A stretch of 34,894 nt of DNA, taken from positions 1 to 34,894 of the forward strand of contig VGLH01000031.1 in assembly GCA_016866785.1 (NCBI GenBank), read 5' to 3'. The translations under genes were made by a program, and so were the position numbers. This document shows positions 24,122 through 29,203 of the stretch, in pieces (the stretch's first letter is position 1; the number at the start of each line of letters is the position of its first letter). The notes beneath the pieces are model-generated. The model was not told where the DNA came from, made no database searches, and saw only the letters and a list, made by a program, of their open reading frames with translations. This DNA comes from Candidatus Poribacteria bacterium. GTDB taxonomy: Bacteria > Poribacteria > WGA-4E > GCA-2687025.

Positions 24122-24235
24122 ATGGACGAATCCCGTCAGACGCAGCGCCCCAACATCGTCGTCATTCTTGTCGACGACATGGGTTACCCGGATATCAGCC
24201 CGTTCGGCGGCGAGATCCACACACCTCATCTGCAG
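24122..24235 (+). pseudogene. Truncated sulfatase, N-terminal fragment only
   Basis: From ATG 24122 (GAAGGA 5 nt upstream) the frame encodes [20 protein letters not shown] followed by [10 protein letters not shown]. This is the first strand and metal-binding DD of type I sulfatases and the conserved GGxxxTPxL step. Homology stops abruptly after ~38 residues. The C-x-P/A-x-R formylglycine site, which should follow some tens of residues later, is absent. The frame runs on to 24601 but is only an antiphase reading of the sigma factor gene. No sulfatase 3' part is found in the window. The gene must have been cut by deletion or by arrival of the sigma-factor segment. Confidence 0.75.
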
Positions 24236-24287
24236 GCGGTCGGATTCAGCGTCGGTGCGAATGCGAACCGAAGCGCCGGACGGAGTC

Positions 24288-24315
24288 TTGTCGTGGGTCA
24301 TGTTAGGATTATGGT
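24288..24315 (+). promoter_or_regulatory. Candidate promoter of the ECF sigma gene
   Basis: TTGTCG (24288-24293), a 16-base spacer and TATGGT (24310-24315), just after the sulfatase break and 48 bases before the sigma factor ATG. It lies in a more AT-rich stretch than its surroundings. GGAAC, the usual -35 core of ECF-dependent promoters, occurs downstream at 24323 and 24354 but without a suitable -10. Confidence 0.35.
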
Positions 24316-24362: not shown

Positions 24363-25379
24363 ATGAAGATGCAGGACGAGGAACGTTGGGTGAACGACGC
24401 CTTGACCGGCTCGCACTCGGCGTTTCAGCGTCTTTACGACGCGTATCGAAAACCAATGCTTCGGTTCACGATGTCGCAAATCAACGACCTCGACGCGGCG
24501 TTGGACATCGTTCAAGCATCGTTTGTGATTGCGTGGCGCGATATGCATCGGTTGCGCAATCCAAAGCGATTCGGCGCATGGTTGATACGTATCGCGAGTA
24601 ATCTGACGAATCGTTGGCTTCGCAATCAGTATCGTCGCCGCCTTGAAACGTCGACGGACGACAGTGTTGCCATACAGACATATCGCCGAGACGAATTGCG
24701 TCAAGAGGTCTGGGACGCCATCGATGTGTTGCCTCCGAGAGAACGCGAATCGGTCGTTCTTCATTACATTATCGGCTACACCTACGACGAGGTAGCGAAC
24801 TTACTGCACGTTCCTGAAAGCACCGTGCTCGGTCGTCTGCAACGCGCTCGCAACCGATTGCGAGAGGAGTTCCAAGACATGGTCAAGCAACTTCGACTCG
24901 AACTCGACGCGACCGTATACGATGTCTTGCAGAAGCAAGCCGAACGCGAGAACACGACTACCGATTCGATGGCGACGCGCATCCTGGCGAAGTACGCAAC
25001 CACCCGATCATTGGACACGGACAACAAGACATTCGATTCGGACAGAATCCCAGTCGTCGCCGATCTGGACGTCGAACCTGCGCGAACTCTCGTTCGGCGG
25101 TTCTTCGAGGCGCTCGCCGCGTGCCGATATACCGAAGCGTCCACGCTGTCCTCACCGAACTACGACGATACGGACTGGTCGAAGAGCGGTCTCGTCTCGG
25201 TCGCTGGCGTGCTCGACATCGGCGAACCCTATCAGAAGCCCGACCGTCGATACGCCGCCGGATGCGGTGTCTTCGTGCCCTACGCCGTCGCGATGTACGA
25301 TGGCTCCGTGCGACGCTTTCGAGCCGCCGTCCGCTGCGACAATCCTAACCGCGAATGGCGACTCGACGGCGGTATCTGA
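24363..25379 (+). CDS. ECF-type RNA polymerase sigma factor with RHH-like segment and NTF2-like C-terminus
   Basis: A 338-residue sigma70-family protein; usual ECF factors are ~180 residues. Region 2 spans ~10-95 ([42 protein letters not shown]), and region 4 spans ~112-170 ([20 protein letters not shown], then [17 protein letters not shown]). Residues 176-212 ([20 protein letters not shown], then [16 protein letters not shown]) match the strand-helix-helix pattern of Arc-type ribbon-helix-helix proteins. Residues 239-338 resemble an NTF2/SnoaL-like domain ([34 protein letters not shown]). Base composition is clearly less GC-rich than its neighbours and codons are less biased, suggesting transfer. 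No anti-sigma gene is adjacent. ATG 24363 is the best start; earlier in-frame starts lack homology. Confidence 0.85.
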
Positions 25380-26581: not shown

Positions 26582-27961
26582 ATGGGGCGTTGGATCCGAG
26601 CGTCGTTCTGCTTCTGTGCCCTGCTACTAGCGGTCGCGGACGCCGGGGCTACGCCCACTCAGTATCAGCAGCAGCGCGCTGAGTTGGAGTCGGAAGTCGC
26701 TCTCTCGACCGGGTCATACGGGGCGCGTCTTCGATTGGGCGTGCTCCATCGCCAGGCGGGGTTCCCGCAACGAGCGATTGCCCCCCTGCTTGCCGCGCTC
26801 GAGCTCGATGCGACGAGCTCTGCCGCGCGGACCGAGCTCGCTGCCGCTTACGCCGAAGTGGGCGACTACGCTGCGGCGTCAAGAGAGCTCACACACGTCC
26901 TCGATTCGGATCCGCTCAATGTCCAAGCGCTGATCCAGCTCGGGGTCGTCCGCAGCGAGCAGAGGCAGTACGCAGAAGCCGAGAAAGCGTATCGGCGCGC
27001 GGTCGCAGCCGATCCTCTCGCGTTCGCTCCGCATCTGGACCTGGGAATCCTGACGCTCCGACAAGGAAAGCTCGCGGAGTCGGCGACTGCGTTTGCGCGA
27101 GCTGCCGAGATCGACTCATCGTCCGCGGATGCCTGGACCGGCTTGGGCGACGTGAGATTGAGGCAGAACGATCTGGACGGGGCTTCGCGTGCTTACGAGT
27201 CCGCCGTTCGGACGGAACCGGCGGCGGCGCTGGCTCTCTACGGTCAGGGGCGCGTCGCGATGAGGCGCTCGCGGTTCGGGGATGCGCTGGCGGCTTTTTC
27301 GCGTGCGGCGTCGGTTCAGCCCGACTATGCCGACGCTGTGTACGGCATGTCGCAGGCGTTGCGTCGGCTCGGTCGAGAGTCCGACGCCGAGGAGGCGTCC
27401 ACACGCTTCGAGCGCCTGCGAGTCACCGAAGCGCTGTTGCTGCGGGCGGATGAGCACGCGCGGCTGAACCCCGACGATGCGCGCAGTCAGGCGAGCCTCG
27501 GAGCGGTTCACATGACGCGCGGCAGGTACGACCTGGCTTCCCGCGCGTTCCTTGCCGCGATCGAGCTCCGCGCTGACGATGGCGGTCTGTGGCACAACCT
27601 CGGGCTCGCCTACACGAAGCTCATGGAGCCGGGTCAGGCGGTCACGGCATACCGGCGCGCCGTCGAGTTGTCCCCTGAGCTGGCGTCGGCGCGCAACAAC
27701 CTGGCGCTGTTGCTCGCCGAACAGGAGTCCTCGCTGGACGAGGCGCTGAGGCATGCGACGGCGGCGACGAACATGGAACCAGCGAACGCGAACTACTGGG
27801 ACACGCTCGCCACCGTGCACTGGGCGCGCCACGACGCGAACGCGGCACGTGCGGCGGCGAAGCGCGGGCTTTCGCTGAATCCCGACGATGAGACGCTACG
27901 GCTGCGGTTCGAGGAACTGATGCGGACGACGTCTGGGCCCAGCCGACGAAAGGAACCATGA
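26582..27961 (+). CDS. Exported tetratricopeptide repeat protein
   Basis: A 459-residue protein with a signal peptide (MGRWIRASFCFCALLLAVADAG, cleavage probably near residue 23). About ten TPR units follow almost to the end, for example LRLGVLHRQAGFPQRAIAPL, IQLGVVRSEQRQYAEAEKAY, LGILTLRQGKLAESATAFAR and NLGLAYTKLMEPGQAVTAYR, each followed by the next helix. ATG 26582 is preferred because it starts the signal peptide; an earlier ATG at 26537 overlaps the LamG gene. Its stop is in an ATGATG overlap with the next gene. It lacks the shared C-terminal tail of its neighbours and may be a periplasmic scaffold or receptor for them, which is speculation. Confidence 0.87.
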   Translation: MGRWIRASFCFCALLLAVADAGATPTQYQQQRAELESEVALSTGSYGARLRLGVLHRQAGFPQRAIAPLLAALELDATSSAARTELAAAYAEVGDYAAASRELTHVLDSDPLNVQALIQLGVVRSEQRQYAEAEKAYRRAVAADPLAFAPHLDLGILTLRQGKLAESATAFARAAEIDSSSADAWTGLGDVRLRQNDLDGASRAYESAVRTEPAAALALYGQGRVAMRRSRFGDALAAFSRAASVQPDYADAVYGMSQALRRLGRESDAEEASTRFERLRVTEALLLRADEHARLNPDDARSQASLGAVHMTRGRYDLASRAFLAAIELRADDGGLWHNLGLAYTKLMEPGQAVTAYRRAVELSPELASARNNLALLLAEQESSLDEALRHATAATNMEPANANYWDTLATVHWARHDANAARAAAKRGLSLNPDDETLRLRFEELMRTTSGPSRRKEP

Positions 27962-28599
27962 TGCGTACACGTATTTCGAGTTTGGCATGGCTCTGTGCTG
28001 CTTTGGCTCTGGGCGGGGTGGCTCAGGCGTGGGCGGTTGGTGTCGATGTGGGACCGGAGTGGCTGTTCGAGACGAAGGACGACGAGAAAGAGCTCCTCCA
28101 GTGGGGGGCGATCAACCAGCTCGCGCCGCTGGACATCGACCAGGTCACGGATGCCAAGAAGAACAAGCGCGGGGTCCTGCTCACCGAGTCGCTCGGCGGG
28201 GACCCGTACATGTTCCCGGGAGGCAACTGGAACGTCGCCGACTATGAGCCATTCAACGGCAAGAAGAACAAGACGCTCTACATGGGCCTTCGGGTCAACA
28301 TGGCGAACACGTGGCAGATCTACTACGTGACGACGAAGGACGGCGCTTGGGGCGAGGTCATGCGACAGAACTTCGATGTCGCGATGGCGGCGGACTTCCA
28401 GGACATCGAGGTCGTCCTAGAGCGCGGCGGATGGCAGGATAGCGACATCAAAGGATTCCGCATCGACCCGGGCACCGCCGCCGGCGTCAAGGCGGAGATC
28501 GACTACATCTCGTTCGTTGGCAGGCCGGAAGGCGCGAAAGCCGTTGATCCCGTTGGGAGACCAGCCGTCGCGTGGGGAGCCCTCAAGGCGGAACGATAG
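27958..28599 (+). CDS. Secreted beta-sandwich protein A (galactose-binding-like) with WxxLK tail
   Basis: A 213-residue protein with a signal peptide (residues 1-26, ...LGGVAQAWA). The mature part has DPYMFPGGNWNVADYEPFNG, KTLYMGLRVNMANTWQIYYV, AWGEVMRQNFDV, ERGGWQDSDIKGFRIDPGTA and AEIDYISF. This pattern fits galactose-binding-like jelly-rolls in environmental secreted proteins that read DPY...LRLDP...EIDYI. It is a close paralogue of the next gene. The C-terminus is AVDPVGRPAVAWGALKAER. It starts in an ATGA overlap with the TPR gene; AGGA precedes it. No catalytic residues can be named; a binding role is likely. Confidence 0.85.
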   Translation: MMRTRISSLAWLCAALALGGVAQAWAVGVDVGPEWLFETKDDEKELLQWGAINQLAPLDIDQVTDAKKNKRGVLLTESLGGDPYMFPGGNWNVADYEPFNGKKNKTLYMGLRVNMANTWQIYYVTTKDGAWGEVMRQNFDVAMAADFQDIEVVLERGGWQDSDIKGFRIDPGTAAGVKAEIDYISFVGRPEGAKAVDPVGRPAVAWGALKAER

Positions 28600-28630
28600 G
28601 TTCGGTGGAGATCACAAAGGAGGAGTGAGC

Positions 28631-29203
28631 ATGCATGGAGTAGTGTCGCTGACAGCAGCCGCGCTCTTTTCGCTGTCGATGGCAGTGAACGCGGCGCCGA
28701 AGTGGACGTTCGACAAGGCATCCGACATCGAGGGATGGACGGCGGTCAACCAGACCGCTCTCTCGGTCGAGGCAGGCGTCCTGAAGGTCGCGGCATCGAC
28801 CGGCGCGGACCCCTACTTCTTCCCCGGCGGCGAGTGGAACAAGGTCTCGTATGAGACCTTCAGCGGGAAGGCGTTCCCGACCCTGTACATGCGGCTCAAG
28901 ACGTCGCCCGCGAGCACGTGGCAGATCTACTACATCACCGTCGAAGATACGGCTTGGGGGGAAGTCCAGCGCCAGAACTTTGATGTCGCCGACACCGGAG
29001 GCTCGTTCAAGGACATCACGGTGAAAATGGAGCGCGGCGGCTGGCAGGAGCACAACGTGAAGGTGTTCCGCCTCGATCCGGGCACAGCGGCGGGGGTCTC
29101 CGCCGAGATCGACTACCTCGGATTCGAGCCGATGACGACGACGGCAGTTCAGCCGGACGGCAAAGCCGCCGCGACTTGGGCAGAGCTGAAGGGCATGAGG
29201 TAG
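28631..29203 (+). CDS. Secreted beta-sandwich protein B, paralogue of A, with WxxLK tail
   Basis: A 190-residue protein with a signal peptide (MHGVVSLTAAALFSLSMAVN, ~22 residues). It shares with protein A the blocks DPYFFPGGEWNKVSYETFSG, TLYMRLKTSPASTWQIYYIT, AWGEVQRQNFDVAD, ERGGWQEHNVKVFRLDPGTA and AEIDYLGF, so it arose by tandem duplication. It is shorter because the N-terminal insert of A is missing (here WTFDKASDIEGWTAVNQTAL). It ends AVQPDGKAAATWAELKGMR. ATG 28631 has a strong AAAGGAGGAG SD; the open frame extends upstream inside gene A without support. It is the last gene of the operon and is followed by a strong hairpin. Confidence 0.86.
   Translation: MHGVVSLTAAALFSLSMAVNAAPKWTFDKASDIEGWTAVNQTALSVEAGVLKVAASTGADPYFFPGGEWNKVSYETFSGKAFPTLYMRLKTSPASTWQIYYITVEDTAWGEVQRQNFDVADTGGSFKDITVKMERGGWQEHNVKVFRLDPGTAAGVSAEIDYLGFEPMTTTAVQPDGKAAATWAELKGMR

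Follow-up and report, generated by a model that had tools for sequence, protein, structure and literature searches.

An ECF-type sigma factor of Candidatus Poribacteria appears to carry its own regulatory parts, with a ribbon-helix-helix (RHH)-like module directly behind sigma region 4 and an NTF2-like domain at the C-terminus. The gene lies in contig VGLH01000031.1, the 34,894-nucleotide stretch analyzed here as a whole and termed the window. The three-part layout is supported by its retention in two related genomes, which makes the design look both real and unusual. The frame is open and intact over 338 residues, from an ATG at 24363 to a stop codon at 25377-25379, and is organized as follows.

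24363..25379, forward strand: ECF-type sigma factor gene, 338 residues, with RHH-like and NTF2-like C-terminal modules (open reading frame and translation; full-length relatives in two genomes)
24432..24635, forward strand: sigma region 2, residues 24-91 (PF04542, Sigma70_r2, E 2.2e-10)
24699..24860, forward strand: sigma region 4, residues 113-166 (PF08281, Sigma70_r4_2, E 9.5e-14)
24885..24998, forward strand: RHH-like module, residues 175-212, with a putative strand at 175-181 and helices at ~183-195 and ~200-212 (hhalign against RHH_1; reverse profile search; helices in models)
24999..25067, forward strand: variable linker, residues 213-235 (0 invariant columns in the three-sequence alignment; partly low confidence in the full model)
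25068..25376, forward strand: NTF2-like domain, residues 236-338, ending in a conserved DNP..W..DGG (VIA-align Z up to 9.8 on a relative's tail model; conserved columns)

The N-terminal part is that of a group 4 (ECF) sigma factor: a short core comprising sigma70 regions 2 and 4, both of which are as normal as the initial annotation had proposed. Sigma models are the only Pfam models over their cut-off in this protein, and the general ECF model of NCBIfam, TIGR02937, is passed at 86.5 bits against a cut-off of 42.9.

When the whole protein is searched against 58 genomes, the window's own among them, two full-length relatives are recovered beyond the window itself: G005, 41% identical over residues 3-338, and G004, 39% identical over residues 10-338. 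These two genomes belong to a different genus of the same family. The remaining matches, among those listed, stop by about residue 216. Whether homologues keep the three-part layout had been posed as a check, and both full-length relatives (2 of 2) do. A tail-only profile (A2; residue 172 onward), run at E 0.001 across 82 genomes of the class, has matches in three: the window's genome, G004, and G005. This corresponds to three of the six genomes of the family and to none of the 76 elsewhere in the class. Between the window and its relatives, 50 of 169 tail columns are invariant, at ~35% identity over the tail. Neither a sigma-RHH protein lacking the NTF2-like part nor a sigma-NTF2 protein lacking the RHH was seen in the class with the segment profile (A3; 79 genomes) and the C-terminal profile (A6); the latter returns the three proteins and weak partial matches, the best at E 5e-4 (L155, which has no Pfam match). 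The layout is rare, yet it is retained wherever the tail was found. Two sigma-only relatives occur in viral contigs, and a named genome collection gives two sigma-part matches in a search reaching close relatives only.

Related genomes (G052:C1:1525185-1546749, G026:C16, G036:C107, and others) hold dozens of ECF sigma genes with frames of ~1,000 residues, and many of these genes lie in arrays, a few kb apart. Sigma factors with long C-terminal parts seem much expanded there.

The segment behind region 4 has, in the window protein and in both relatives, the strand-helix-helix pattern that had been noticed at residues 176-212. A stretch of alternating hydrophobics (QLRLEL, QIRIDL, and QLRLDI in the three proteins) is followed by a helix, a turn, and a helix, and Gln176, Arg178, Leu189, Ala193, Ala204, Leu208, Lys210, and Tyr211 are invariant in all three. 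The further label of the initial annotation, Arc-like, does not survive this comparison. The KxAE of helix 1 and the Ser at helix 2 are found only in the window copy and are absent from both relatives, and Arc-specific homology is rejected on this ground.

Single-sequence comparisons of this segment give weak matches. None of the three proteins reaches the cut-off of a Pfam RHH model. Searched in isolation, the segments reach RHH_4 at E 0.04 (window) and FitA-like_RHH at E 0.036 (G005), with nothing for G004; ANTAR is also among the matches, at E 0.073 (window) and 0.13 (G005). The top row for the whole tail against the PDB is the RHH protein AvtR (E 0.1). A reference set was drawn from the 15 occurrences of RHH_1 in 56 related genomes. 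Scored one by one with an HMM of these 15 proteins, the three tails rank weakly, at lines 231, 683, and 1390 when mixed with 6,000 shuffled copies.

Profile-profile comparison gives a stronger signal. Aligned by hhalign with the 15 RHH_1 proteins, the three-sequence profile scores 26.9 (probability 82.8%, 40 columns). None of 400 column shuffles reaches this score, the best attaining 14.6, and 60 sliding windows along the whole alignment score at most 14.5 where they do not overlap the module. Compared singly, the window tail scores 14.0 (probability 4%) and the relatives 22.4 and 19.3, so the RHH evidence leans on the relatives. In the proposed check of residues 170-215 against RHH families, profile-profile comparison matches the segment to the RHH superfamily, though the single-sequence Pfam matches (E 0.036-0.04) stay below the cut-off.

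The reverse search points the same way. Run over 79 genomes of the class, the segment profile of the three tails finds the three proteins at E 1.1e-24 or better and then 30 weak matches at E 0.02-1, of which 12 were fetched for a Pfam scan.

L143: CopG_antitoxin, E 2.9e-10
L145: CopG_antitoxin, E 0.001
L144: FitA-like_RHH, E 8e-5
L147: DUF6364, E 6.7e-11, and CopG_antitoxin, E 0.0066
L149, 1471-1659, reverse strand: RHH_5, E 0.0044
L142: DUF6364, E 0.0017
L140: only weak RHH_5 (E 0.17) and ParG (E 0.18), ranking below an unrelated match (E 0.1)
L141: DUF58, not RHH
L151: no Pfam match; resembles an RHH on visual inspection only
L146, L148, and L150: stops or very short frames, outside the Pfam scan

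By Pfam, five of these 12 are RHH below E 0.01, or six if DUF6364 is counted, against a background of only 15 RHH_1 occurrences in 56 genomes; the other Pfam matches of L147 suggest that DUF6364 is an RHH relative. Separately, the reverse-strand gene at L140:1450-2280 encodes a ParB_N protein whose C-terminus looks RHH-like, and L149 holds a similar segment. On the profile evidence, residues 175-212 probably adopt an RHH fold.

Two structure models bear on this segment. The full-length model of the window protein has a mean pLDDT of 68; its sigma part is good, and residues 171-187 and 200-225 fall below 50. A single low-confidence helix runs through 152-179, followed by helices at 183-195 and 200-212. 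The model of the G005 tail, computed with the other two rows aligned, has a mean pLDDT of 82 and shows coil at 8-13, a helix at 14-26, a helix at 31-59, and then the C-terminal domain. Both models thus contain the two helices, and neither draws the RHH strand as a strand. The strand at 175-181 is proposed from the hydrophobic alternation in the sequence, because a ribbon between two molecules is beyond what a monomer prediction can show. Searched by fold, neither the full model nor the tail lists an RHH structure in the rows shown; this is neutral, as matches to the sigma and NTF2 parts take up those rows.

The last ~100 residues very likely form an NTF2-like fold, as judged from the tail model of the relative. 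The 50 VIA-align rows shown have Z 8.2-9.8 and rmsd 2.3-3.7 over 88-105 residues, all within tail-model residues 60-171, and are largely NTF2-like or cystatin-like. They include the RsgI9 NTF2 domain, YchJ, PBP5, and many stand-alone NTF2-like proteins. By Foldseek, the best row for the same model stands at E 0.024, and none falls below 0.001. The domain had been described as NTF2/SnoaL-like, and the first half of that description holds at the level of fold. The second is not supported: no SnoaL model is among the Pfam matches up to E 10, which offer only weak DUF4878 (E 0.032) and DUF4829 (E 0.16).

These parts can be assembled into a mechanism in which the sigma factor carries its own regulator, an RHH behind region 4 plus a cis-acting NTF2-like tail. 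Taken as a whole, this reading is slightly favored. By homology, regions 2 and 4 would bind RNA polymerase and recognize the promoter. The RHH module, about eight residues past region 4, would join two copies by a two-stranded ribbon formed between them. Such pairing is fairly likely, given what RHH folds do, and follows if the module is truly an RHH. RHH proteins usually touch DNA through outward-facing strand residues. Here, Gln176 and Arg178 would be the outward-facing invariant residues at that site, an invariance that covers three sequences only and is thin evidence. Because of these two residues and the short spacer, the sigma pair could conceivably hold on to DNA immediately upstream of the -35 element. 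The acidic residue 180 does not favor DNA contact, and contact by the RHH is a tentative proposal.

Pairing is frequent among NTF2-like folds, as is the binding of small ligands or partners. By analogy with ECF41 and ECF56, this domain may stand in for a separate anti-sigma factor. In the most likely cycle, the tail would keep the sigma factor paired and poorly active; a ligand or partner of the NTF2-like domain would then alter the pairing, and the sigma factor would act at a few promoters, its own likely included. In the fullest and rather speculative form of this proposal, the RHH ribbon of the sigma pair would read an operator beside the -35 element and the NTF2-like domain would be the switch, so that a single polypeptide would serve both as promoter-recognition subunit and as ligand-gated transcription factor.

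Residues 175-212 might instead form a simple hairpin of helices, or a linker made of a long helix, by which the NTF2-like domain packs on region 4, as in other NTF2-tailed ECFs, with neither ribbon nor pairing. The low-confidence helix through 152-179 in the full-length model would deny the strand, and no Pfam RHH model passes its cut-off. An ANTAR helix pair also beats its shuffles: hhalign against an alignment of 30 ANTAR proteins gives 21.3 (probability 35%), with 15.6 as the best of 200 shuffles. The same three-sequence profile nevertheless prefers RHH, 26.9 to 21.3, and its search brings back RHH antitoxins. Moreover, all three proteins have hydrophobic residues alternating at 177/179/181, as suits a strand and not a helix, and the relative's tail model has coil, with no helix, at 8-13. 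A plain linker is thus rather unlikely. A different role for a genuine RHH is suggested by several of the best segment matches, which belong to antitoxin families (CopG_antitoxin, FitA-like). An antitoxin-type RHH and the NTF2-like part could together bind a separate anti-sigma partner protein, DNA contact not being involved. According to an excerpt of PMC7730460, SigG1 of Streptomyces (ECF56) is controlled by a separate anti-sigma factor, RsfG, despite its SnoaL_2 tail. For the window protein there is no conserved neighbor to serve as the candidate partner, as the relatives share only the sigma gene with the window, and this arrangement is improbable.

A last alternative, which concerns the gene as a whole, is that it is a recent arrival or decaying copy whose tail is no longer under selection. 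Its composition fits: GC is 0.575 and GC3 0.678, the lowest of 25 coding stretches (the sigma gene, nine window neighbors, and 15 sigma-like stretches of the same genome). The other 24 have GC 0.610-0.692 and GC3 0.705-0.873, the window mean GC is 0.645, and the sigma genes of both relatives have GC3 0.84, so the lower GC noted in the initial annotation is confirmed. The gene also adjoins a sulfatase start (24122-24238, just upstream; PF00884 positions 1-31 of 301, E 0.001) that is cut off, and its tail occurs in only three of 82 genomes. The intact frame and the invariance of 50 of 169 tail columns at ~35% identity argue against this alternative, which is very unlikely. The cut-off sulfatase start itself looks like a remnant of rearrangement. 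Low GC, patchy presence, and the truncated neighbor suggest horizontal arrival, as had been proposed, and fit arrival or relocation in this genome, with no donor found. Arrival is left unproven because the nearest relatives are of the same family, the tail has no match in plasmids, and no phage or plasmid record covers 80% of the whole protein as query.

The ten neighboring frames scanned include pyruvyl-transferase-like, LamG, TPR, isochorismatase-like, sugar-nucleotide, and radical-SAM genes, and no anti-sigma-like gene is among them. Two adjacent frames farther along (27958-28596 and 28622-29200) encode visibly similar proteins of ~200 residues each, without a Pfam match. G004 and G005 have a gene order in common; with the window they share the sigma gene only, plus an antisense-frame match inside it. 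They also have a divergent gene in common, with a weak DUF3108-like match; a search at E 0.001 of the genome of the window gives no match to it, and it was dropped as a conserved target gene. A candidate upstream motif was likewise rejected. TGTTAGGATT at window 24301-24310, which lies ~62 bases ahead of the start codon, is similar to TGTTAGGTTT and TGTTAGCTTT before the two relatives (8 of 10 columns alike, at about -62/-66/-68), and 11 of 150 shuffles match as well, which is not significant.

The reading of a sigma factor with a built-in RHH and NTF2-like tail can be set against three known systems. ECF41 proteins (Ecf41Bli, M. tuberculosis SigJ) are described in excerpts of PMC8999054 and PMC3426412 as having regions 2 and 4 followed by a SnoaL-like domain of the NTF2 superfamily that regulates in cis; excerpts of PMC3426412 and PMC7730460 give their motifs as WLPEP, located in the linker between sigma2 and sigma4, and NPDKL, located in the tail. 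The window protein shares the order of sigma regions and NTF2-superfamily domain. It differs in having the RHH-like module between region 4 and that domain, and in lacking a SnoaL Pfam match. Both WLPEP and NPDKL are missing from all three proteins, and ECF41 membership is rejected. To ECF56 the likeness is again a sigma core with an NTF2-superfamily tail: Foldseek of the full model lists SigG1 (7qh5) at rank 27 (E 1e-4), and VIA-align on 7qh5 places model residues 7-136 only. In contrast to the window protein, SigG1 is not mentioned as having an RHH in the excerpt of PMC7730460, and it has its anti-sigma factor RsfG, whereas the window gene has none among the ten neighbors scanned.

RHH_1/CopG, CopG_antitoxin, and FitA-like proteins resemble the module in strand-helix-helix pattern and by profile match. 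Most known RHH proteins are small repressors and antitoxins, in contrast to the present module, which follows a sigma factor in a fusion. In the open-access literature, searched by title and abstract start, no ECF sigma factor with an RHH domain was found, which leaves its absence unproven. Sigma factors are normally viewed as working singly, as reading no DNA beyond the -10 and -35 boxes, and as being regulated by a separate anti-sigma factor or a fused tail. If the RHH is real, pairing, and perhaps the reading of additional DNA, would be part of the design of this sigma factor, which would unite a sigma factor and a transcription factor in one chain. The protein is small enough for direct testing in vitro. 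On the best reading, an ECF sigma factor with a C-terminal NTF2-like extension is a known design, and the probable RHH directly behind region 4 would be what is new.
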